8,060 nt of DNA from an uncultured Prevotellaceae bacterium (GTDB lineage Bacteria; Bacteroidota; Bacteroidia; Bacteroidales; Bacteroidaceae), in contig CAMJNN010000055.1 of assembly GCA_946407325.1 (NCBI GenBank), positions 1 through 8,060 of the forward strand, in the 5' to 3' direction. The first letter of the stretch is position 1. Each line of letters begins with the position of its first letter. The notes below the pieces were generated by a model. It was not told where the DNA came from. It did no database searches and saw only the letters and a list, made by a program, of their open reading frames with translations. Positions 873 through 8,060 of the stretch are shown piece after piece. Both the position numbers and the translations under genes were made by a program.

Positions 873-1892
873 ATGGCAAAACAAGAACTTACATTTGATG
901 ATATCATGTCCAGCCTCAGGGCTAAGCAATATGCGCCCATCTATCTGTTGATGGGTGATGAAGGCTATTACATCGATGAGATAGCCAACTATATCATCGA
1001 TCATGTGCTAACCGATAGCGAGAAGGAGTTCAACCTTACCATTGCCTACGGCTCGGACGTAGATATAGCCGCTATCATCAATGCCGCCAAACGCTATCCC
1101 ATGATGGCCGAATACCAGGTGGTGGTGGTGAAAGAGGCACAGAACGTCAAGAACATGGACGAACTGGCCTTTTACCTCCAAAAGCCGTTGAAATCTACCA
1201 TTTTGGTCATCTGCCACAAGCATGGGAAAATTGACGGTCGTAAGAAATGGGTGAACGAAGCGGCTAAAATGGGCGTGGTGTTTGAGTCGAAGAAGCTGAA
1301 AGAACAGCAAATGCCTGCGTTCATCAATAGCTACATGCAGCAAAAAGGCTATGAGATGGATGCCAAAGCCACGCAGATGATGGCCGATTTCGTGGGAACC
1401 GACCTGGGGCGCATGACTGGCGAGCTGGACAAGCTGATCATCACGCAACCCAAAGGACAGAAACGGGTAACCCCTGAGCAGATTGAGCGAAATATCGGCA
1501 TCAGCAAGGACTACAACGTCTTCGAGCTGCGCAACGCTATCATAGCAAAAGATGTGATGAAGGCCAACCGCATCATCAAATACTTTGCTGAAAACCCCAA
1601 GACCAACCCCATACAGATGACCTTAGCGCACTTATTCAGCCTCTTCTCCAATCTGTTCATGGCGTATTACGCCCCTGAGAAGAGTGATGCAGGGGTGGCC
1701 ACCTTCCTAGGCTTGAAATCGCCCTGGGCGGCAAGGGATTATACAACGGCCATGCGCAACTATTCCGGCTTGAAGGTGATGCAGATTATTCATGAAATAC
1801 GCATGACCGATGCCCGTTCTAAGGGAGTAGAGAATAATTCGGTGGAAGATGCCGATCTCCTGCGCGAACTGGTCTTCAAAATTCTACATTAA
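873..1892 (+). CDS. holA: DNA polymerase III subunit delta
   Basis: Clamp-loader delta subunit, which opens the beta sliding clamp during chromosome replication. The 339-aa length is normal for the family. The N-terminal segment IYLLMGDEGYYIDEI (about 23-37) is the degenerate AAA+ P-loop region of HolA, where nucleotide-binding residues are lost. The middle has the family signature GTDLGRMTGELDKL (175-188), followed by ISKDYNVFELRNAI (210-223), which opens the C-terminal collar domain. The ATG lies 3 nt after the amn stop with no separate promoter, so it probably relies on the amn transcript. The long gap after its stop suggests this two-gene unit ends here. No truncation or frameshift is visible. 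Confidence 0.93.
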   Translation: MAKQELTFDDIMSSLRAKQYAPIYLLMGDEGYYIDEIANYIIDHVLTDSEKEFNLTIAYGSDVDIAAIINAAKRYPMMAEYQVVVVKEAQNVKNMDELAFYLQKPLKSTILVICHKHGKIDGRKKWVNEAAKMGVVFESKKLKEQQMPAFINSYMQQKGYEMDAKATQMMADFVGTDLGRMTGELDKLIITQPKGQKRVTPEQIERNIGISKDYNVFELRNAIIAKDVMKANRIIKYFAENPKTNPIQMTLAHLFSLFSNLFMAYYAPEKSDAGVATFLGLKSPWAARDYTTAMRNYSGLKVMQIIHEIRMTDARSKGVENNSVEDADLLRELVFKILH

Positions 1893-1942
1893 TAGGATAG
1901 GGCACGAGAATCGCGTTTTTTCGATGAACTCGACCATTTGTA

Positions 1943-1970
1943 CGAAAAATCGCAAGGATTTTCATTTTCG
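1943..1970 (+). terminator. weak terminator-like hairpin after holA
   Basis: GAAAA (1944-1948) can pair with TTTTC (1959-1963) around a GCAA tetraloop (1952-1955), with one internal mismatch, and T-rich sequence follows. CGAAAA at 1943-1948 can alternatively pair with TTTTCG at 1965-1970. The stem is AT-rich, so this is only a candidate end of the amn-holA transcript. Confidence 0.25.
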
Positions 1971-1993
1971 CTTCTTAAAAATTATTAGCCATT

Positions 1994-2095
1994 TCATCGG
2001 TAAACGCAAGTTGACCAAAAGGGGAGACTTCTATCTTTATAAATGTACACTTTCGGCAAACTTCCAACACCCATTTTGAGGCAAAGTTTTCCCAT
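1994..2095 (-). CDS. possible 33-aa micro-ORF, unknown
   Basis: I do not recognise this ORF. It begins at the ATG at 2095-2093 with a weak GGAAG-like site upstream and ends at TGA (1994-1996). The peptide starts MGKLCLKMGVG, contains aromatic and basic residues in its second half and ends CVYR. It lies about 50 nt downstream of a minus-strand promoter match (2155-2185), which is its main support. An ORF of this size can easily occur by chance. It could instead be part of an untranslated RNA or a conserved intergenic element. There is no signal peptide or clear domain. Confidence 0.15.
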   Translation of the reverse strand: MGKLCLKMGVGSLPKVYIYKDRSLPFWSTCVYR

Positions 2096-2154
2096 TAACT
2101 TCCGTTTACATTTACATTTATACAAATTATTTCTGTAATTTTACTATAATAATA

Positions 2155-2185
2155 CAAAGATACACGTCTATCTATGTTTTTACAA
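2155..2185 (-). promoter_or_regulatory. leftward promoter-like site in intergenic region
   Basis: On the minus strand TTG (2183-2185), a 20-nt spacer and TATCTTTG (2155-2162) match the Bacteroidetes -33/-7 arrangement. Transcription would run left across 2148-1900, where only a 33-codon minus-strand ORF (1994-2095) is seen. No known gene is recognised there. Confidence 0.4.
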
Positions 2186-2532
2186 CCATCAATTCTACTG
2201 TAGTATTGTAAACAAATAGCCCTGTTTCTTACAATGATAGTTGTTTTAAAATAGCCTTTTCAGTACTATATACGCTTATTTCCCAATATTTTATCACTAA
2301 TTATTAAACTAAACAATCGTACAAAGGTGCAGTACGAGGGTATTACCAACCTAAAATGTCTATTATTGTACTATATTGCATTAATAACGTCTAAATACCA
2401 ATTAATTACGCAATTTTGCTAAACTAAATTACGAAACGGAAACGCCCTATTTTCGTGTCAGGTATGTTGATAGCTCTTATTCTTATATCGATTTCATCGT
2501 ACAATTATACAAGTTACTTTTGTATAAAAATA

Positions 2533-2564
2533 TTTGCATTTGTAAACAGAAGTTTCTATTTTTG
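2533..2564 (+). promoter_or_regulatory. promoter of the helix-turn-helix gene
   Basis: TTTG (2533-2536), a 20-nt spacer and TATTTTTG (2557-2564) exactly match the Bacteroidetes primary-sigma promoter pattern, placing a start site near 2570 and a leader of about 30 nt. TTGTAAAC at 2540-2547 lies between the two elements and its inverse GTTTACAA lies just after the start at 2581-2588, a suitable place for an operator. A second -7-like TACTTTTG occurs at 2515-2522. Confidence 0.65.
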
Positions 2565-2603
2565 TAGCAGCATTAAAAACGTTTACAATTGTAGTTTTCC
2601 AAA

Positions 2604-3059
2604 ATGATGACCATTATCGACCGCCTGAAGCTGATTTTAGAGCGTGTAAACCTCACGCCAGGCAACTTTGCTGACAAAATTGGAGTAGCGCCTGCTACCA
2701 TCTCCCACATCCTTAGCGGCAGGAACAAATATCCCAGCGCTGAGGTTATGTTACGTCTGCATGAGACCTACCCTGACATAGATCTCAACTGGTTGCTCAC
2801 CGGCGAGGGCACTTTGGTCAAGGATGATCCTGATTCCATGTTTACAGGTTCTTTGTTTGGCGACAATGCGATAAATCCCGCCCAACGTACGATTGAAAGC
2901 GAAAATCGCAAGGAAAATGCGTTGGAATCGGCAAAAAATGATGATAATGTAGTTGTAAAACAGGAGATTATCTATAAAGAAAAGCCTGCAAGAAACATTG
3001 CTGAAATAAGAATTTTCTACGACGACGGCACTTACGAGACGTTTACGCCCAACAAATAG
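2604..3059 (+). CDS. Xre-family helix-turn-helix transcriptional regulator
   Basis: Small DNA-binding protein of 151 aa. Residues 5-68 form a Cro/C1-type (HTH_3) domain: RLKLILERVNLTPGNFADKI, then GVAPATISHILSGRNKYPSAEV (27-48), where ATISHILSGR is the recognition helix region, closing with NWLLTGEG (62-69), which is typical of Bacteroidetes members. Residues 75-125 are a polar, probably flexible linker rich in Asn, Asp, Lys and Glu. The C-terminal end, IAEIRIFYDDGTYETFTPN (132-150), looks like a beta-hairpin. No S24 peptidase or toxin partner is present. Translation could begin at either of two adjacent ATGs (2604 or 2607). It has its own strong promoter and possible flanking operator repeats, which suggests autoregulation. 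Its targets are unknown, and there is no direct evidence that it controls the nearby pyr genes or the peptide array. Confidence 0.85.
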   Translation: MMTIIDRLKLILERVNLTPGNFADKIGVAPATISHILSGRNKYPSAEVMLRLHETYPDIDLNWLLTGEGTLVKDDPDSMFTGSLFGDNAINPAQRTIESENRKENALESAKNDDNVVVKQEIIYKEKPARNIAEIRIFYDDGTYETFTPNK

Positions 3060-3090
3060 TTGGTTGGTTGAATTTATTTTCTTACCTTTG
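3060..3090 (+). promoter_or_regulatory. promoter of the pyrK-pyrD pair
   Basis: TTG (3060-3062), a 20-nt spacer and TACCTTTG (3083-3090, exact TAnnTTTG) form a Bacteroidetes promoter, predicting a start around 3096 and a very short leader before the ATG at 3112. It begins immediately after the stop of the helix-turn-helix gene. Confidence 0.65.
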
Positions 3091-3111
3091 ACTTCGTAAT
3101 ATCATCTTATT

Positions 3112-3888
3112 ATGAAGAAATACCTTTTAGATCTCAAGGTGGTGGCAAATGAGCGACTGGCTTCCAACTTCGTGTTGTTGAAGCTACAAGGCGACCAACC
3201 GTTGCCTGACATGTTGCCAGGACAGTTTGCCGAACTCCGTGTGGACGATGCTCCCCATACTTTCCTGCGTCGTCCTATATCCATCAATTTCGTTGACAGA
3301 CAGCAGAATAGCGTATGGTTTCTCATACAGCTTGTAGGCGAAGGCACCAAACGATTGGCTACCCTCGAACTGGGTAGTGTGGTGAATGTGCTACTGCCTT
3401 TGGGCAATGGTTTCGCTATGCCCCAGCGTGCTGACGAGCAACTGTTGCTGGTGGGAGGAGGTGCCGGCACAGCCCCCATGCTCTATTTTGGCGAGCAACT
3501 TCAGCAGCAAGGCATCCGTCCGTCGTTCCTCCTGGGCGCCCGCACCGCATCCATGTTGCTGCAGCTCGATGAATTCAATAAATATGGTGATGTATATACC
3601 ACCACAGAAGATGGCAGTCACGGCGAGAAAGGCTTTGTCACCCAACATTCCATCCTGAGCGACAAGCACTTCGACCGCATCTGCTGCTGTGGCCCCAAGC
3701 CCATGATGCTGTCGGTTGCCCGCTACGCCAAGGCCAAAGGCATCACCTGCGAAGTCTCTTTGGAAAACAAAATGGCCTGTGGCTTAGGCGCTTGCCTCTG
3801 TTGTGTGGAAAACACCACCGCAGGTCATGTATGTGTGTGTACAGAAGGTCCCGTGTTTAATATCAACGACTTGTTATGGCAGATTTAA
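3112..3888 (+). CDS. pyrK: dihydroorotate dehydrogenase electron-transfer subunit (FAD, 2Fe-2S)
   Basis: Iron-sulfur flavoprotein that passes electrons from dihydroorotate dehydrogenase B to NAD+ in de novo pyrimidine synthesis. The 258-aa length matches the family. The order of domains is an N-terminal FAD-binding barrel with the flavin motif RRPISI (53-58), a NAD-binding Rossmann-like domain with VGGGAGTAP (114-122), a CGPKPMM segment (193-199) and a C-terminal [2Fe-2S] site. The cluster ligands by position are Cys223, Cys228, Cys231 and Cys243, in MACGLGAC and the Cys before TEGPVF. Extra Cys residues (191-193, 230, 241) make this region unusually Cys-rich, but all four expected ligands are present. 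Its 3' end overlaps pyrD by 13 nt, consistent with translational coupling and a stoichiometric complex. Confidence 0.92.
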
Positions 3889-4787
3889 GAGTAAATATAG
3901 GCGCGTTGGCGTTGAAGAACCCCGTGCTCACCGCCTCCGGCACATTTGGTTATGGTGAGGAGTTCGCTGATTTTATCGACCTCACCCGTTTGGGAGGTTT
4001 CATCGTAAAGGGTACCACCTTGCATCCCCGTGAGGGCAACCCATATCCCCGTATGGCAGAAACCCCTATGGGCATGCTTAATGCGGTAGGTCTTCAGAAC
4101 AAGGGCGTGCATTATTTCGTTGAGCATATCTACCCCCGTCTCAAGGACATAAACACCCATGTTATTGTCAATGTATCAGGCTCATCGATAGAAGATTATA
4201 GCGAAACGGCCGCCATTGTCAACGACCTTGACAACATCCCCGCCATTGAGCTGAACATCTCCTGTCCGAATGTCAAGAAGGGAGGCATGACCTTTGGTGT
4301 GCAACCCAACGCTGCAGCCGAGGTGGTGAGTGCTGTGCGCAAGGCCTATCATAAAACACTCATTGTCAAGCTCACGCCCAATGTGACAGACATCACCGAG
4401 ATTGCCAAAGCCGTTGAGGGAGCCGGTGCCGACAGTGTTTCCCTTATCAACACCATGCTGGGTATGGCCATCGATGCCGAGCGCCGCAAGCCCTTGCTCT
4501 CTACCGTAACAGGCGGATTGTCAGGACCTTGCGTCAAGCCAGTAGCCCTGCGTATGGTGTGGCAGGTGGCCAAGGCCGTGAAAGTGCCGGTAGTAGGGTT
4601 GGGAGGCATCATGAACGCCACCGATGCCATCGAGTTCATGTTGGCAGGTGCCACAGCCGTTGAGATTGGCACAGCCAACTTCATCGACCCATCCATCACC
4701 GTCAAGGTGGTTGATGGCATCAACGACTACCTCGATCGCCACGGTTTCAAGTCTGTCCGCGACATCATCGGTGCCTTGGAAGTATAA
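3876..4787 (+). CDS. pyrD: dihydroorotate dehydrogenase, class 1B catalytic subunit
   Basis: FMN enzyme oxidising dihydroorotate to orotate, the fourth step of pyrimidine synthesis, acting in the cytoplasm with the overlapping pyrK product. The 303-aa TIM barrel has the class 1 features [10 protein letters not shown] (18-27), [15 protein letters not shown] (45-59), NAVGLQN (69-75), [10 protein letters not shown] (125-134) with Cys130 as the catalytic base expected for class 1 (class 2 uses Ser), KLTPN (165-169), the phosphate-binding GGLSGP (213-218), GLGGI (241-245) and GTANF (265-269). The ATG at 3876 lies inside the end of pyrK, 13 nt before its last base. The protein is complete and intact. 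It is the last housekeeping gene before the peptide array. Confidence 0.95.
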
Positions 4788-4810
4788 TGCGAGTTAAAAC
4801 TTATTAAAAG

Positions 4811-4843
4811 TTTGCGTTTTAGCAGAGAAATCTTTTACTTTAC
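4811..4843 (+). promoter_or_regulatory. candidate promoter of the peptide array
   Basis: TTTG (4811-4814), a 21-nt spacer and TACTTTAC (4836-4843, six of eight to TAnnTTTG) lie about 30 nt before the first peptide gene. A short AAACTT/AAGTTT hairpin (4797-4813) just upstream could partly end pyrD transcription. The sequence after the -7 element (CTTTACAACAATTATA) resembles that before the fifth peptide gene (CTTTAAAACAATATTA, from 5896). Confidence 0.45.
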
Positions 4844-4872
4844 AACAATTATACACCAGAAACCGTTATTCT

Positions 4873-5118
4873 ATGGAAGATAATAAAGAAAAACGCGTGT
4901 TACGAGTAGAGCTCGACAACGAGGTAAAGAAAGTATCCATCACTGGAAAGAATAGTGATGAGAAGGTAGTAATGCGCCAGGAACTCAGCGAGGACGAACT
5001 GGATCTGGCTGCAGGAGGTACAACAGGCATTGGGCATAGAGTTTGTGTTAAAGTTGATGATAATGGTCAATGCAAGCAAGTCATTAACGTGCCCAGAGGC
5101 GGCAGCTCAAGGCCTTAA
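4873..5118 (+). CDS. array peptide 1, double-glycine leader with 32-aa core
   Basis: 81-aa precursor-like peptide. The leader (1-49) starts MEDNKEKRVLRVEL, contains VKKVSITGKN and ends LSEDELDLAAGG, the form expected for cleavage after Gly49 by a C39 peptidase/ABC exporter. The 32-residue core has Cys58 and Cys67, which could form a disulfide with eight residues between, and ends in an Arg/Ser/Gly/Pro-rich tail (RGGSSRP). The second Gly-Gly at 76-77 lacks the leader context. It is first in the array, 85 nt after pyrD, with its own candidate promoter. The leader differs from later copies at a few positions (R at 11, LAA before Gly-Gly). Function is inferred from architecture only. It could be a bacteriocin, an unmodified secreted peptide or a modified natural product. 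Confidence 0.75.
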   Translation: MEDNKEKRVLRVELDNEVKKVSITGKNSDEKVVMRQELSEDELDLAAGGTTGIGHRVCVKVDDNGQCKQVINVPRGGSSRP

Positions 5119-5132
5119 CAGCAAATAGCATT

Positions 5133-5393
5133 ATGGAAGAAAACAAAGACAAGCGTGTGTTACGAGTAGAGCTCGGCGACGATGTGAAGAAGGTCTCTAT
5201 CACCGGAAAGAACGAAGAGGAACAGGTGGTGATGCGACAAGAACTTGACGAGGATGAGCTGGATATGGTGACGGGAGGAAGCAAATCGTTGAAAGATCTT
5301 CACTTCCACATGGAAATTAATGAAAATCAGATTAATGAGGGAGTAAAACGCTATGTTAATTTTGATGGCGGATGCCATCCCGTAATGCCATGA
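5133..5393 (+). CDS. array peptide 2, double-glycine leader with 37-aa core
   Basis: 86 aa, the longest array member. The leader (1-49) is MEENKDKRVLRVEL..., with VSITGKN and ELDEDELDMVTGG, and cleavage is expected after Gly49. The 37-residue core begins SKSLKDLHFHMEINEN, contains two His, and ends FDGGCHPVMP with a single Cys81. The internal Gly-Gly at 79-80 is part of the core. The ATG lies 14 nt after the stop of peptide 1, so the two are surely co-transcribed. With peptide 1 it shares the RVLRVEL variant and GAGCTCG codons in the leader, so these two form a subgroup. No known bacteriocin family is recognised in the core. Confidence 0.72.
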   Translation: MEENKDKRVLRVELGDDVKKVSITGKNEEEQVVMRQELDEDELDMVTGGSKSLKDLHFHMEINENQINEGVKRYVNFDGGCHPVMP

Positions 5394-5438
5394 TAATGGT
5401 TCCAACTGAAAACATAAAGAATTGTAAAACCAGGCAAT

Positions 5439-5639
5439 ATGGATGAGCAGAAAGACAAAAGAGTGCTGAACATTGAGCTTAGCAACGAGGTAAAGAAGAT
5501 CTCCATCACAGGAAAGGACGGTGATGAGAAGGTCGTGATGCGCCAGGAACTGAGTGAAAATGACCTCAATCAGGCAACGGGAGGGTTACTAGATCGAACC
5601 TGGTATTGCCCCAAGGTAGGCTGTGTCGGTAAAAGCTGA
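5439..5639 (+). CDS. array peptide 3, double-glycine leader with 17-aa core
   Basis: 66 aa with the shortest core. The leader begins MDEQKDKRVLNIEL and ends LSENDLNQATGG (Gly48-Gly49). The 17-residue core, LLDRTWYCPKVGCVGKS, holds two Cys four residues apart around CPKVGC, next to aromatic WY, a compact motif that could be disulfide-closed. Leader DNA is almost identical to that of peptide 4 at 5664, including the upstream CCA-GCAAT spacer, which marks a recent duplication. The cores of these two peptides show no resemblance. The ATG at 5439 is chosen because it aligns with the other copies. Confidence 0.72.
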   Translation: MDEQKDKRVLNIELSNEVKKISITGKDGDEKVVMRQELSENDLNQATGGLLDRTWYCPKVGCVGKS

Positions 5640-5663
5640 TGAAATAAAAACGAGCCAAGCAAT

Positions 5664-5873
5664 ATGGATGAGCAGAAAGACAAAAGAGTGCTGAACATTG
5701 AGCTTAGCAACGATGTAAAGAAGATCTCCATCACTGGAAAGGACGGTGATGAAAAGGTCGTGATGCGCCAGGAACTCAGCGAGGACGACCTGGAACAAGC
5801 CACAGGAGGGATTGATCTGGGCAAGATTCAAGCGGGGCTTCAGTTTGATCTTCAATGTTCCCCCAACAGTTAA
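5664..5873 (+). CDS. array peptide 4, double-glycine leader with 20-aa core
   Basis: 69 aa. The leader MDEQKDKRVLNIELSNDVKK... with ISITGKDGDEKVVM and LSEDDLEQATGG differs from peptide 3 at only a few residues. Cleavage after Gly49 would release a 20-residue core that starts IDLGKIQAGLQ and carries one Cys near its end (CSPNS). It lies 24 nt after peptide 3. The core is mildly amphipathic and nearly neutral, unlike the cationic peptide at 7400. This is the last copy before a new promoter-like element at 5893-5900. Confidence 0.72.
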   Translation: MDEQKDKRVLNIELSNDVKKISITGKDGDEKVVMRQELSEDDLEQATGGIDLGKIQAGLQFDLQCSPNS

Positions 5874-5892
5874 TCGTTACTTGAACATTTCT

Positions 5893-5900
5893 TAACTTTA
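5893..5900 (+). promoter_or_regulatory. -7-like element before array peptide 5
   Basis: TAACTTTA matches TAnnTTTG at seven of eight positions and is followed by AACAATATTATAT, resembling the sequence ahead of the first peptide gene. No TTTG is seen about 20 nt upstream, so it is a weak candidate for an internal promoter. Confidence 0.25.
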
Positions 5901-5915
5901 AAACAATATTATATC

Positions 5916-6110
5916 ATGGAAGAGCAGAACAACAACAAGCAAAAGTTGAGCGAAGAGCTCGACAACGAAGAGAAGAAAGTAATGAAGCAGGAAATCAGCG
6001 AAGATGACCTTGACGTATCAGCAGGAGCAGATAAGACTTTTTGTAGTGGTCATTGTGTAGTTGTAAAGCATAAATCTAAATTTTCCTGTGATTTATTTAC
6101 CTTACATTAA
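5916..6110 (+). CDS. array peptide 5, shortened leader ending Gly-Ala, 3-Cys core
   Basis: 64 aa and the most divergent array member. Its leader begins MEEQNNNKQKLSEEL, lacks about 12 residues present in all other copies (the VSITGxNxDEK block between KK and VVM) and ends EDDLDVSAGA, with Gly37-Ala38 where the others have Gly-Gly. Gly-Ala is an accepted site for some C39 peptidases, so export may be retained. The 26-residue core (from Asp39) has Cys43, Cys47 and Cys58 in TFCSGHC and FSCDL, and is basic (four Lys and two His). The reading frame is intact, so it is probably a functional variant, although a decaying copy is possible. A strong hairpin terminator follows immediately. Confidence 0.65.
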   Translation: MEEQNNNKQKLSEELDNEEKKVMKQEISEDDLDVSAGADKTFCSGHCVVVKHKSKFSCDLFTLH

Positions 6111-6116
6111 GCTATT

Positions 6117-6140
6117 AATCCCTCGCTTTTGCGAGGGATT
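6117..6140 (+). terminator. Rho-independent terminator inside the peptide array
   Basis: AATCCCTCGC and GCGAGGGATT form a perfect 10-bp stem with a TTTT loop, and TGACTTTT follows. It lies between peptides 5 and 6 and should divide the array into two transcripts or reduce expression of the distal genes. Confidence 0.8.
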
Positions 6141-6176
6141 TGACTTTTGAAGTAACAGCAAGAATACTATAAGATT

Positions 6177-6413
6177 ATGGAAGAGCAGAAAGATAAGCGC
6201 GTGTTGAAAGTAGAACTCAACGACGAAGTTAAGAAAGTCTCCATCACTGGTACTGACAGCGATGAGAAGGTGGTGATGCACCAAGAGCTGAACGAGAAAG
6301 ACCTGGAGCAGGCAATAGGCGGGGATGCTGCCTCTAATAAAATCCCAGAAATTTTAAAAAAGGAAAAAGGAGAATATCTTATTCAACATCCAGAGCTACA
6401 GATCTTTTTATAA
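6177..6413 (+). CDS. array peptide 6, double-glycine leader with Cys-free core
   Basis: 78 aa. The leader MEEQKDKRVLKVEL... VSITGTDSDEKVVMHQELNEKDLEQAIGG keeps all conserved blocks, with small changes (H for R, AI before Gly48-Gly49). The 29-residue core starts DAASNKIPEILKKEKGEYL and contains no Cys, so disulfide or thioether closure is excluded for this product. Its middle is Lys/Glu-rich and could be helical, ending in a hydrophobic QIFL. By my count the leader codons are about 49% G+C while the core is about 31%, a sharp shift within one small gene. It is the first gene after the internal terminator, and I see no good promoter in the gap. Confidence 0.7.
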   Translation: MEEQKDKRVLKVELNDEVKKVSITGTDSDEKVVMHQELNEKDLEQAIGGDAASNKIPEILKKEKGEYLIQHPELQIFL

Positions 6414-6446
6414 AGCTTTTGAACTAAAATTCTAAAATGAATCAAT

Positions 6447-6671
6447 ATGGAAGAGCAGAACAACAACAAGCGAGTGTTGAACATCGAACTAGACAACGAC
6501 GTGAAGAAGGTCTCCATCACTGGCACAAACGGTGATGAGAAGGTTGTGATGCGTCAGGAACTAAGTGAAGACGACCTTGATCAAGCATCGGGCGGCGGAA
6601 ATCATGTAAATTACTTATATGCGGGTTGTGATCCAAATTGTGAACCTTTAAAATGTAGTGCAGTTCATTAG
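6447..6671 (+). CDS. array peptide 7, double-glycine leader with 3-Cys core
   Basis: 74 aa. The leader MEEQNNNKRVLNIELDNDVKK has the NNNK variant also seen in peptide 5, which makes it one residue longer, so cleavage is expected after Gly50 in DQASGG. A third Gly follows. The 24-residue core begins GNHVNYLYAG and has three closely spaced Cys in CDPNCEPLKC (61, 65, 70), before SAVH. Three Cys leave one unpaired unless it is modified or dimerised. The leader is otherwise full length with VSITGTNGDEKVVMRQEL, unlike peptide 5. The shared NNNK start suggests peptides 5 and 7 have a common ancestor copy. Confidence 0.72.
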   Translation: MEEQNNNKRVLNIELDNDVKKVSITGTNGDEKVVMRQELSEDDLDQASGGGNHVNYLYAGCDPNCEPLKCSAVH

Positions 6672-6692
6672 AAGAACTAAAACTTTAAGATT

Positions 6693-6899
6693 ATGGAAGA
6701 GCAGAAAGACAAGCGTGTGCTGAACATTGAGCTTAGCAACGACGTGAAGAAGGTCTCCATCACTGGCACGAACGTTAATGAGAAGGTAGTAATGAAGAAA
6801 GACCTCAGTGAAGAGGACATTGATCAAGCAACGGGAGGAGTAACACCAGGAAACGTACCAAGAGCAATAACAGAAATTTGTTCTATAGTTTTATTATAA
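6693..6899 (+). CDS. array peptide 8, double-glycine leader with hydrophobic core
   Basis: 68 aa. The leader MEEQKDKRVLNIELSNDVKK, VSITGTNVNEKVVMKKDL and SEEDIDQATGG ends at Gly48-Gly49. The 19-residue core, VTPGNVPRAITEICSIVLL, has one Cys and a strongly hydrophobic C terminus. The four residues PGNV are encoded by the same 12 nt as PGNV near the start of the next core (6846-6857 versus 7061-7072), which is the only core similarity visible in the array. It is 21 nt after peptide 7 and 11 nt before peptide 9. Core DNA is about 32% G+C. Confidence 0.7.
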   Translation: MEEQKDKRVLNIELSNDVKKVSITGTNVNEKVVMKKDLSEEDIDQATGGVTPGNVPRAITEICSIVLL

Positions 6900-6910
6900 A
6901 ATAATTGATT

Positions 6911-7147
6911 ATGGAAGAACAGAAAGACAAGCGTGTGCTGAACATTGAGCTTAGCAACGACGTGAAGAAAGTCTCCATCACTGGCAAGAACAGTGATGAG
7001 AAAGTAGTAATGCGCCAGGAACTCAGCGAGGACGACCTGGAGCAGGCCACGGGCGGGTATCCAGGAAACGTATTAGACAATATGTTTGATTGTATAAGTG
7101 ATTCTAGTGGTTTACCCGACCTATTATGTTCATGGAAACAAAAATAG
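6911..7147 (+). CDS. array peptide 9, double-glycine leader with 29-aa core
   Basis: 78 aa from the ATG at 6911. An in-frame TTG at 6905 is possible, but the ATG aligns with all sister genes, which start MEEQKDKRV, so it is preferred. The leader VSITGKNSDEKVVMRQELSEDDLEQATGG is close to the array consensus, ending at Gly48-Gly49. The 29-residue core begins YPGNVLDNMFDC, has two Cys (Cys60 and Cys73) and several Asp, and ends CSWKQK. The acidic and hydrophobic character contrasts with the basic peptide at 7400. It is the last gene of the homologous array. A terminator hairpin follows at 7186. Confidence 0.72.
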   Translation: MEEQKDKRVLNIELSNDVKKVSITGKNSDEKVVMRQELSEDDLEQATGGYPGNVLDNMFDCISDSSGLPDLLCSWKQK

Positions 7148-7185
7148 TTAGGCAATGATATAGAAGTTGGCACTACTAATTCTTA

Positions 7186-7211
7186 AAATGCAGTCAGAAA
7201 TGGCTGCATTT
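7186..7211 (+). terminator. terminator after the nine-gene array
   Basis: AAATGCAG (7186-7193) pairs with CTGCATTT (7204-7211), extended by a T-G and a C-G pair, with a six-base loop AGAAAT. The following ATTGT is only modestly T-rich. The position after the last homologous peptide fits the end of the transcript. Confidence 0.6.
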
Positions 7212-7272
7212 ATTGTATAACATAACTTGTGTTATTGTCATTTATGAACGTGTTATATAAACCATAAATGCG

Positions 7273-7292
7273 GTTTGCAATGTCGTTTGCAA
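7273..7292 (+). repeat. direct repeat GTTTGCAA upstream of peptide 10
   Basis: GTTTGCAA occurs at 7273-7280 and 7285-7292, 12 nt start to start, upstream of the promoter-like TACTTTTG of the tenth peptide gene. The spacing of about one helical turn would suit a dimeric regulator. A hairpin CATTTATG/CATAAATG (7239-7246 with 7263-7270) precedes it. No regulator is identified. Confidence 0.3.
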
Positions 7293-7339
7293 GAAAGAAA
7301 ATTATAGCTCAAAATGAATGCTTTTTTGAAAATATTACT

Positions 7340-7347
7340 TACTTTTG
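7340..7347 (+). promoter_or_regulatory. -7 promoter element of peptide 10
   Basis: TACTTTTG is an exact TAnnTTTG match 52 nt before the ATG at 7400, giving this gene its own promoter separate from the array. The only TTTG upstream (7325-7328) is at 11 nt, too near for a standard -33 element. Confidence 0.45.
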
Positions 7348-7399
7348 CAATGAGTAGCGGAAAATCCGTCGCATACTAAAAATTGGAAACTATATAATT

Positions 7400-7627
7400 A
7401 TGGCAACTTTAACTAACGAACAGATTGAGCAGAGGAAGCAACTGCTCGCAGAGAAAGTGAAAGAAATGGATGCTATCTACAATGAGCTCAAGGATAGTGG
7501 CATCATGGAGTTATCAGATGAGGAACTCGATAACATAACTGGTGGTGGTAAGTTCTTAGATTTTTTTAAGAAGATCGGAGAAAGCACTTTTGTGTATAAG
7601 ATGGTTGATTTGATCCGAAAACGGTAA
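7400..7627 (+). CDS. peptide 10, unrelated double-glycine leader, cationic amphipathic core
   Basis: 75 aa. The leader (1-49) is different from the array family: MATLTNEQIEQRKQLLAEKV and the following residues form one or two amphipathic helices, ending IMELSDEELDNITGG. This general form is seen in many Gly-Gly and Nif11/NHLP-like natural product leaders. Only the last dozen residues and the exact Gly48-Gly49 position are shared with the array peptides. The 26-residue core, starting GKFLDFFKKIGESTF, has no Cys, carries seven Lys/Arg against three Asp/Glu, and can be drawn as an amphipathic helix ending IRKR. That suits a membrane-active bacteriocin, but activity is inference. It has its own -7 element and is followed by a strong terminator. 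Confidence 0.72.
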   Translation: MATLTNEQIEQRKQLLAEKVKEMDAIYNELKDSGIMELSDEELDNITGGGKFLDFFKKIGESTFVYKMVDLIRKR

Positions 7628-7688
7628 AATATTTAAAATACTCTTAAGGATAAGATCATACGCCCTTGCCGCTGAGCCGTAAAAGATA

Positions 7689-7711
7689 AAACCCCTCGAA
7701 TTGAGGGGTTT
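7689..7711. terminator. bidirectional terminator between peptide 10 and smalltalk gene
   Basis: AAACCCCTC and GAGGGGTTT form a perfect 9-bp stem around GAATT. On the minus strand it is followed by TTATCTTTTA, and on the plus strand by the weaker AGTCTT. It sits between convergent genes and can end both transcripts. Confidence 0.8.
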
Positions 7712-7715
7712 AGTC

Positions 7716-7742
7716 TTACATATAGATGGGGCCATGTCCCAT
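7716..7742 (-). repeat. duplicated C-terminal tail of the smalltalk gene
   Basis: Read on the minus strand this is ATG GGA CAT GGC CCC ATC TAT ATG TAA (MGHGPIYM and stop). It repeats the last nine codons of the smalltalk gene at 7777-7803 (MGHGPMFF and stop). The first 15 nt differ at one silent base, and the remaining codons give similar residues. The 17-nt core of each copy also folds as a 7-bp hairpin (ATGGGGC/GTCCCAT on plus). The copies begin 61 nt apart. Confidence 0.65.
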
Positions 7743-7776
7743 AGCTCAAAATATTTTCTCTAAAATATATCTATTT

Positions 7777-7893
7777 TTAGAAAAACATGGGGCCGTGTCC
7801 CATACAACTTGTTGTGCTCATGGCAGTCAATGCTGCCGTCAGTATCGAGATGGTGAACTGAATCACCGTCTTCAAAAGGTCTTTATTTTTCAT
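7777..7893 (-). CDS. smalltalk protein
   Basis: A 38-aa protein, too short for most gene callers. It begins MKNKDLLKTVIQFTISILTA, continues with a hydrophobic stretch to about residue 27, then TTSCMGHGPMFF. This matches the small Bacteroidetes 'smalltalk' family: a short basic N terminus, one hydrophobic segment and a Cys in a T-S-C-M context. The family is commonly found just after a HU-like DNA-binding gene, and the remnant at 8012-8060 on the same strand fits that. The Cys30 setting resembles a relaxed lipobox, so a tiny membrane lipoprotein is conceivable. Molecular function is unknown. No amidase gene, a frequent third partner, follows; instead a terminator and a copy of its tail are found. 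Confidence 0.75.
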   Translation of the reverse strand: MKNKDLLKTVIQFTISILTAALTAMSTTSCMGHGPMFF

Positions 7894-7944
7894 AGTTAAG
7901 TTAGATTAAGGTTAGTTACTGGCTCTTCGCCTTATGAATGTGCC

Positions 7945-7973
7945 GGCAGCTGACTGCGAGCAGATATGCTGCC
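7945..7973 (-). repeat. inverted repeat between HU-like and smalltalk genes
   Basis: GGCAGC (7945-7950) and GCTGCC (7968-7973) enclose a smaller CTGC/GCAG pair (7954-7957 with 7960-7963), forming a two-part hairpin in the 118-nt gap between the two minus-strand genes. No T-run follows in either direction, so it looks more like an mRNA stability or processing structure than a terminator. Confidence 0.3.
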
Positions 7974-8011
7974 TACACACATCCATTAGGCTCCCGAGCT
8001 TTATTTACGGT

Positions 8012-8060
8012 TTAAATCTGCATGCCGTCGCCGCCATCACCGCCACCGTTGTCACCGCCA
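8012..8060 (-). CDS. C-terminal end of a probable HU-family DNA-binding protein (partial)
   Basis: Only the last 15 codons are inside the window, reading GGDNGGGDGGDGMQI and stop (TAA at 8014-8012). The rest lies past position 8060. A low-complexity Gly/Asp tail of this kind is typical of the extended HU-like proteins of Bacteroidetes, and the following smalltalk gene on the same strand, 118 nt downstream, is the usual neighbour. The identification depends on that context, since no DNA-binding domain is visible here. Another Gly/Asp-rich protein end cannot be excluded. Confidence 0.55.
   Translation of the reverse strand, partial: GGDNGGGDGGDGMQI

Follow-up and report, generated by a model that had tools for sequence, protein, structure and literature searches.

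What do nine adjacent small genes that begin alike and end in unrelated ways encode? The question is raised by an 8,060-nt stretch of DNA from an uncultured Prevotellaceae bacterium (assembly GCA_946407325.1, contig CAMJNN010000055.1), here called the window, in which such an array occupies positions 4873-7147. From sequence comparisons we propose, with a probability of about 0.6, that the nine genes form a library of precursors of ribosomally synthesized and post-translationally modified peptides (RiPPs), in which a trans-acting radical-SAM enzyme would modify a Cys and a single exporter would cleave and secrete the cores. The evidence comes from a Cys anchored near the C-terminus of most cores, from a related locus that encodes precursors, maturase and exporter together, and from the exporter found in every carrier of the leader in the nearest genus. 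A preliminary description of the array had one exporter serve a diversified peptide library, and very probably missed a radical-SAM maturase acting before export. Below, genomes, loci (contig stretches) and database proteins carry the labels G, L and P, and coordinates without a label refer to the window.

The precursor array

The ORF list and a comparison of the leaders confirm the nine adjacent open reading frames (ORFs), all on the plus strand:

4873..5118, + strand: precursor 1; 49-residue leader; core TTGIGHRVCVKVDDNGQCKQVINVPRGGSSRP; last Cys 14 residues from the end, an exception to the Cys rule described below
5133..5393, + strand: precursor 2; core ends GGCHPVMP; last Cys 5 from the end
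5439..5639, + strand: precursor 3; core LLDRTWYCPKVGCVGKS
5664..5873, + strand: precursor 4; core ends QCSPNS; Cys 4 from the end
5916..6110, + strand: precursor 5; 38-residue leader without the VKKVSITG block, ending Ala-Gly-Ala
6177..6413, + strand: precursor 6; core without Cys
6447..6671, + strand: precursor 7; 50-residue leader; core with three Cys, ending KCSAVH; Cys 4 from the end
6693..6899, + strand: precursor 8; core ends ICSIVLL; Cys 5 from the end
6911..7147, + strand: precursor 9; core YPGNVLDNMFDCISDSSGLPDLLCSWKQK; Cys 5 from the end

The common 49-residue Gly-Gly leader previously assigned to all nine genes is present in seven; that of gene 7 is one residue longer, and gene 5, with its 38 residues and Gly-Ala end, does not fit. 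Describing the leaders as nearly identical in DNA was too strong, since identity over the 36 pairs ranges from 52 to 90% (mean 72%); a repeat finder reports eight copies of 156 nt, of which the other seven are 68-90% identical to the reference copy. The abrupt divergence after Gly-Gly is borne out, with a mean core DNA identity of 43.2% versus 43.3% for shuffled cores, and the core lengths (17-37 residues) and Cys numbers (0-3) had been given correctly. The cores are thus hypervariable in being no more alike in DNA than shuffled ones, but they share a C-terminal Cys rule.

Several members have recognizable relatives elsewhere. Cores similar to that of precursor 2 occur in the metagenomic proteins P0080 and P0116, P0114 has nearly the same core as precursor 6, and P0001-P0004 are 86-94% identical to precursor 9 over 100% of the query. 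The core of precursor 5 resembles one at L003 7448-7672 (L082 9041-9265), where the leader is full length.

The leader family and its distribution

No NCBIfam or Pfam model scores over its cut-off for any of the nine precursors, which agrees with the earlier remark that the leader block was not recognised as a described precursor family, and none passes a curated Gly-Gly bacteriocin cut-off. Database proteins matching gene 9 number 353 at E<=1e-3; for a wider-family profile the count is at least 1199 (clustered at 90%) at E<=1e-5. Such numbers place the family far beyond chance. Neither the 120 best listed of the 353 nor the 120 best listed of the 1199 carry a Pfam domain. The 20 loci with the leader in named records all belong to assemblies of Bacteroidaceae, Prevotellaceae or Prevotella; the RGIG ones are titled as rumen, reticulum or omasum material, and RUG in other names presumably stands for rumen uncultured genome. 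The window itself derives from a gut bacterium whose host was probably a ruminant. A viral origin was considered and rejected, as none of 12 pattern matches in viral contigs was a relative by tblastn.

Among 158 genomes of the nearest genus, the leader is present in six, at 7-20 matches per genome (E<=1e-8) on several contigs, and G007 has a single weak match at E<=1e-3. Adjacent precursors also occur in the contigs L011, L012 and L013. An array is one kind of site, and relatives carry leader genes scattered over the genome. In all, 107 leader genes were catalogued at E<=1e-6. Excerpts of the literature on the leader and neighbouring systems held no recognised description of it, and within the searches made the leader, the maturase subfamily and the Cys rule look new.

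A C-terminally anchored Cys

In 54 of the 79 core clusters from the catalogue, the last Cys stands 3-6 residues from the end (18.2 +/- 3.6 in shuffles, at most 33 in 5000), and in 36 of the 79 it stands 4 or 5 from the end. None of the other 19 residues shows such anchoring (next highest z 2.2, versus 9.6 for Cys). The 3-6 range was chosen after viewing this first set and then kept unchanged for two further sets. Among new clusters from the second, metagenomic set, 25 of 29 obey (shuffles 7.7 +/- 2.3, maximum 18), and the third set gives a weaker result of 10 of 17 (4.2 +/- 1.7, maximum 11).

The first set consists of the 107 catalogued genes less one without a stop, giving 105 distinct complete cores (that of L141 re-cut by hand) in 79 single-linkage clusters, one of them a merger of 10 unlike cores; each cluster is represented by its alphabetically first core. 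For the second set, the best 120 of the 353 gene-9 relatives were reduced to 109 by dropping P0095 (no recognised cut) and 10 cores that were already known or shorter than 6 residues; these form 43 clusters, 29 of them unlike set 1. For the third, the best 120 of the 1199 profile matches lost 14 known cores and 8 without a recognised cut (several of which obey by eye), leaving 98 cores, including the mis-cut P0264, in 42 clusters, of which 17 are unlike sets 1 and 2.

Cys makes up 6.2% of core residues versus 1.2% in long ORFs of the G001 loci, and the pair CP occurs 30 times in cores versus 11.1 in shuffles. A single Cys is found in 52 of 106 distinct cores. Cores behind this leader contain Cys in 92 of 105 cases versus 0 of 11 behind a second leader type (see below). 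One fixed Cys point is what would be expected if one enzyme must act there. An unusual precursor at L112 986-1666 has a 159-residue core with 9 Cys, which by eye consists of about four diverged repeats with CSGYE.

The radical-SAM maturase

A candidate for this enzyme is a 474-residue radical-SAM protein in G001 (L082 4986-6410), encoded 86 nt downstream of a precursor. Orthologues at 64-69% identity are present in G009, G113 and G136, and the next match drops to E 4.6e-37 and 30% identity. The maturase is thus found in four of the six carriers (including G001) versus none of the 152 other genomes. Co-occurrence with tailoring enzymes, which the preliminary description had proposed to map, is seen in these four, with no match in G014 and G114 (89% and 59% complete). 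A family-wide search with a threshold of E<=1e-60 found the maturase in 4 of 399 genomes, of which three belong to other genera.

The clearest linkage is seen in L011 (ONCZ01000059.1), where precursors, two maturases and exporter lie on one strand:

3843-4884: precursors, five or six, one of them split into two frames
4881-6233: first maturase; its GTG start overlaps the TGA stop of the last precursor
6230-8320: SpoIIE-phosphatase-like protein between the two maturases; 696 residues, SpoIIE phosphatase domain at 145.5 bits
8321-9673: second maturase
10771-11607: HlyD
11639-13777: C39-ABC
from 13781: second ABC

The overlap of maturase start and precursor stop is a sign of coupled translation, and the SpoIIE-domain protein is a possible regulator. 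Precursors and a radical-SAM/SPASM maturase are thus encoded side by side in both L011 and L082.

The G001 protein has a radical-SAM domain (55.3 bits); its SPASM domain stays under the Pfam cut-off (19.0 of 21.5 bits) and passes that of TIGR04085 in the genome search (27.5 of 27). Some relatives carry a PqqD-type domain, which scores 45.7 bits in the relative P0191 and falls just short in the G136 maturase (23.3 of 23.4). The score against the PapB model is 107 of 340 bits. In a profile search against solved structures the best match is 5wgg (E 1.4e-19; also 5why), followed by SkfB (3.4e-7). The predicted fold (pLDDT 81.8) is closest to 5why (E 5e-15, TM 0.52), and its matches, at TM 0.44-0.52, begin with 5why and 5wgg, whose titles name thioether bond formation in sactipeptides, and continue with TigE and SkfB. 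According to a passage of PMC10352776, 5WGG is CteB, a ranthipeptide maturase. Thioether formation is our leading guess for the reaction.

Other markers of tailoring were tried and set aside. A bare count of SPASM domains is uninformative (21 of 24 genomes match), and only the orthologue search separated carriers. A search confined to the LanC-type cyclase domain (PF05147) gives no match in four of the six carriers, all of them incomplete; in G001 and G113 it gives a weak partial match in a 212-residue ORF. YcaO (PF02624), the marker for azole formation in TOMMs, is found in none of these six incomplete genomes. Separately, G001 has a RiPP cluster of known type (L077 8003-18565, contig C12) with a TIGR04148 maturase and a TIGR04150 pseudo-rSAM protein, both over cut-off, together with a TIGR04157-like glycosyltransferase (under cut-off), a partial LanC-like protein and an HlyB-like C39 exporter; the partial PF05147 match of G001 lies inside this cluster.

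The exporter and recognition of Gly-Gly

A C39 ABC transporter is found in all six leader-bearing genomes of the 158. The leader therefore does co-occur with such an exporter, one point on which the earlier proposal had been open to refutation, and with the L011 linkage the idea of one C39 exporter for a diversified library is well supported. The bare presence of C39 (PF03412) says little, since 11 of 22 non-carriers tried have it too. The carriers share a C39 type of 714-729 residues, which in G001 is an NHLM peptidase ABC protein. In that genome TIGR03796 scores 869.9 bits (cut-off 853.3) and TIGR03797 scores 718.9 (709.4), and the genes are ordered as short HlyD-like protein, TIGR03796 ABC, TIGR03797 ABC, adaptor and TolC-like protein. 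Nine of the 158 genomes have TIGR03797 at E<=1e-150, namely the six carriers plus G007, G154 and G160, that is 6/6 carriers versus 3/152 others (Fisher p 4e-9, inflated by shared ancestry); TIGR03797 passes its own cut-off in three of the six. The exporter operon is present in all carriers (in G136 split over two contigs) and in G007. An exporter tree, with 4 of 6 inner branches open, was not used as evidence.

The leader end fits this exporter. Among catalogued genes, position -12 is L, I, V or F in 106/106, position -4 is V, A or I in 105/106, and position -7 is L, M or I in 106/106, a count partly built in because the cut finder itself requires L, I or E near -7. Passages of PMC6363468 on C39 (PCAT) recognition describe hydrophobic residues at -4, -7 and -12 before Gly-Gly/Ala, and the leader agrees with that pattern at -1/-2, -4, -7 and -12. 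In G007 the exporter is syntenic, no orthologue of the maturase was found, and two short candidate precursors, one with Gly-Gly and the other with Gly-Asp at its end, lack the VKKVSITG block; this single case hints that export can do without the N-terminal block of the leader.

A second NHLM ABC2-like gene occurs in G001 (L098 10785-12902) and G136 (L102 4800-6902), at 592.9 and 611.7 of 709.4 bits and so under the curated cut-off, and the stretches fetched around these two genes hold no leader gene.

Possible turnover of the library

Between window positions 5518-5668 and L008 10080-10230 of G001 (a gene that also appears as L086 8590-8790), 150 of 151 nt are identical; the match takes in the 3' part of the precursor-3 leader, the core (54/54 nt) and the spacer as far as the start codon that follows. 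Of the first 79 leader nt only 54 match, and the DNA upstream is unlike. The breakpoint thus lies inside the leader.

For 17 gene pairs whose cores are related, identity was compared upstream, in the leader, in the core and downstream; alignments of random cores give 62.6 +/- 9.1%. Some pairs have unlike upstream DNA and a similar remainder, such as L014/L121 (48, 85, 95 and 96%) and L114/L119 (53, 98, 93 and 100%), and others do not show this, such as L107/L142 (67, 68, 59 and 67%). The pattern fits gain, loss and shuffling of cores via leader DNA, though no rate follows from a single clean mosaic. Truncated leader copies at L081 12172-12282 and L083 5324-5434, both ending DAIR, are probably pseudogenes from one event.

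The left neighbour of the array marks a second discontinuity:

3876..4787, + strand: pyrD

Window 967-4789 is 99.1% identical to G001, the nearest genome compared, and identity stops at the pyrD stop; downstream of pyrD, G001 (L153 16179) has cobalamin-type genes by eye and no array. The right end of the window resembles another place in G001 at 86.5%.

Proposed pathway and alternative explanations

In the proposed pathway, the first ~35 leader residues (KRVLxIEL...VKKVSITG...EKVVMRQEL) would recruit the trans-acting radical-SAM/SPASM maturase, and the last ~13 (LSEDDLEQATGG) would be read by the C39 peptidase of the NHLM-type ABC exporter. The maturase would act on the Cys that precedes the C-terminus by 3-6 residues, most likely linking its sulphur to a neighbouring residue as a thioether. 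The exporter, comprising C39-ABC, second ABC, adaptors and TolC-like protein, would then cut after Gly-Gly and release the mature peptide. New members may arise by duplication and recombination inside leader DNA, which would move cores between places. A role in competition or signalling is a guess; no immunity gene or target was identified, and no systematic search for one was made.

A number of observations weigh against this pathway. For the window strain, exporter and maturase are inferred by way of G001. None of the six carriers is complete (59-89%, in 50-310 contigs), and the leader occurs in 0 of 93 genus genomes at >=90% completeness and <=5% contamination; the carriers are moreover related, and the Fisher values and profile statistics treat genomes as independent. 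No maturase match was found in G014 (89%) and G114 (59%), though precursors are present, and 9 of 19 cores of G014 obey the Cys rule nonetheless. Conversely, no precursor was seen in the stretches fetched around the maturases of G009, G113 (whose contig ends 1.4 kb past the maturase) and G136, and the maturase homologues of G345, G475 and G524 stand alone within ~20 kb. The maturase is far under the curated cut-offs shown (best TIGR04463, 125 of 525 bits). A 219-residue minus-strand ORF, perhaps spurious, separates the second maturase from HlyD in L011. Seven of the nine window cores obey the Cys rule, with genes 1 and 6 breaking it, as against one of five in Tb.RUG.396; 13 of 105 cores have no Cys, and the residues flanking Cys vary, so that no acceptor is evident. 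Structure prediction for the leader reached only low confidence (pLDDT 54, a single helix at 40-46) and was not used.

Some of these points suit an unlikely alternative, in which the NHLM exporter cleaves and secretes unmodified cores, the Cys makes disulphides (inside one peptide or joining two) or receptor contacts, and the maturase serves other or few substrates. The exporter is present in all carriers and the maturase only in four, the cores have no conserved acceptor residue, and G007, with exporter and candidate precursors but no maturase orthologue, suggests that export alone is workable. Against this, the many single-Cys cores could form no internal disulphide, the L011 overlap points to coupled translation of precursor and maturase, and C39 export alone needs a leader shorter than 49 residues. 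That the Cys might instead close a thiolactone-like ring with the C-terminal carboxylate, as in the autoinducing peptides (AIPs) of staphylococci, making the library a set of signals, is suggested by the frequent 4- or 5-residue spacing, which is similar to the AIP ring size. We consider this very unlikely, as the linked enzyme is a radical-SAM maturase and, to our knowledge, such enzymes do not make thiolactones; Cys-to-end distances also vary more here than in AIPs. This evidence is weak, since no search for a ring-forming protease was made.

Two further alternatives concern the DNA itself. The array at pyrD could be partly an assembly artefact, a contig joining two places, which would affect location only and is compatible with the other readings. 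The abrupt end of G001 identity at the pyrD stop, the match of the right end to a different G001 place and the tendency of repeats to be join points would be explained in this way; the break, however, lies outside the leader repeats, precursors also stand side by side in L011, L012 and L013, and the entries for P0042, P0114 and P0003 (close relatives of genes 3, 6 and 9) all give 70,913 bases for the longest contig, presumably one and the same, so we regard an artefact as improbable. Hardly credible is the idea that the products are cytoplasmic small proteins with a coincidental Gly-Gly, or decaying repeats: the truncated leaders in L081 and L083 and the L011 copy in two frames would suit it, but at least 105 of 106 genes retain the C39 recognition positions, some cores are conserved between genomes, and the Cys rule would have no place in it. 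The modified and exported RiPP library remains our preferred reading.

Relation to known systems

Passages of PMC2887384 and PMC10783134 describe prochlorosins and the NHLP and N11P families as having a long conserved Gly-Gly leader and a hypervariable core, with an NHLM exporter in NHLP/N11P, and those of PMC10783134 further describe prochlorosin precursors as scattered and served by a trans-acting promiscuous enzyme. The present family shares with them the conserved Gly-Gly leader, variable cores, many scattered paralogues and an NHLM exporter (TIGR03796 plus TIGR03797). Unlike NHLP/N11P, none of ten window precursors gives an NHLP or Nif11 match (NCBIfam and Pfam, maximum E 10, with filters that drop most weak matches). 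In contrast to prochlorosins, no full-length LanC and no YcaO was found in the six incomplete carriers, with a radical-SAM maturase instead, and the family has a single-Cys C-terminal rule and belongs to Bacteroidales. The logic of the system, with a conserved leader, a proposed trans-acting enzyme and scattered precursors, resembles that of prochlorosins, whereas leader, enzyme type and phylum differ.

With ranthipeptides and sactipeptides (CteB, PapB, SkfB) it shares a radical-SAM/SPASM maturase beside the precursors and Cys in most cores; it differs in a maturase under the curated equivalog cut-offs shown, in having no evident Cys-rich or CX3D-type core, and in one maturase for many unlike cores. 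The Bacteroidales TIGR04148/TIGR04150 system, which presumably has Gly-Gly precursors, also combines a radical-SAM enzyme with a C39 exporter. Here, in contrast, the linked maturase lacks TIGR04148 among the best 25 of its 48 matches, no pseudo-rSAM partner is seen, the exporter is an NHLM double ABC and the precursors are many and dispersed. Bacteroidetocins, class II-like bacteriocins of Bacteroidales with a Gly-Gly leader and C39 exporter according to the abstract of PMC6671954 and a passage of PMC10352776, are alike in these three respects; they are set apart, by their descriptions and not by sequence, by the many unlike cores and the linked maturase in L011.

Bacteroidales RiPPs are described as poorly known in a passage of PMC10352776. 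Tentatively, and at somewhat less than even odds, the family may represent a new RiPP class in which a promiscuous radical-SAM enzyme makes a ring or crosslink on a C-terminus-anchored Cys and cores are shuffled via leader DNA among dozens of places; strains at 99% identity would then carry different libraries. Because the precursors come with a linked enzyme and exporter, this is testable by co-expression. If the Cys rule reflects one promiscuous enzyme, that enzyme would be a tool for crosslinked peptide libraries, and if cores shuffle via leader DNA, the family would be a natural experiment on the diversification of secreted peptides.

Other features of the window

Two other features lie within or next to the array:

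6117..6140, + strand: terminator-like hairpin 3' of gene 5 (pattern only)
7400..7627, + strand: tenth Gly-Gly precursor, with a second leader type (MATLTNEQIEQ...) and a core without Cys

The hairpin suggests that the nine genes are not one transcript and form at least two; six terminator-like sites are found on both strands of 4700-8060, versus 2.2 +/- 1.5 in shuffles. A scan of the window against Rfam with gathering scores found nothing.

The tenth gene scores 16.4 bits versus a cut-off of 15.7 for TIGR01847 (bacteriocin_sig). A homologue with a similar core stands at L086 8832-9068, beside the precursor-3 look-alike of G001. The second leader family (MATLTNEQIEQKK...) is also found in L012, L015, L080, L083, L086 and L087 and is often interleaved with the first (L012); this pairing is biased, because all but L080 come from loci fetched for the first family.

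On the minus strand, window 7726-8060 holds a short ORF (MKNKDLLKTVIQ...), provisionally labelled 'smalltalk protein', and the tail of a Gly-rich protein, noted together with L081 10850-11503, L086, L091 1756-2409 and L079 15772-16188. In the G001 region matching the right end of the window (L086), one gene appears HU-like on visual inspection. The only HU-like gene scanned scores 60.9 of 68.6 bits, under the model cut-off; such genes occur in several leader loci and also adjoin the exporter in G001, G009 and G114.

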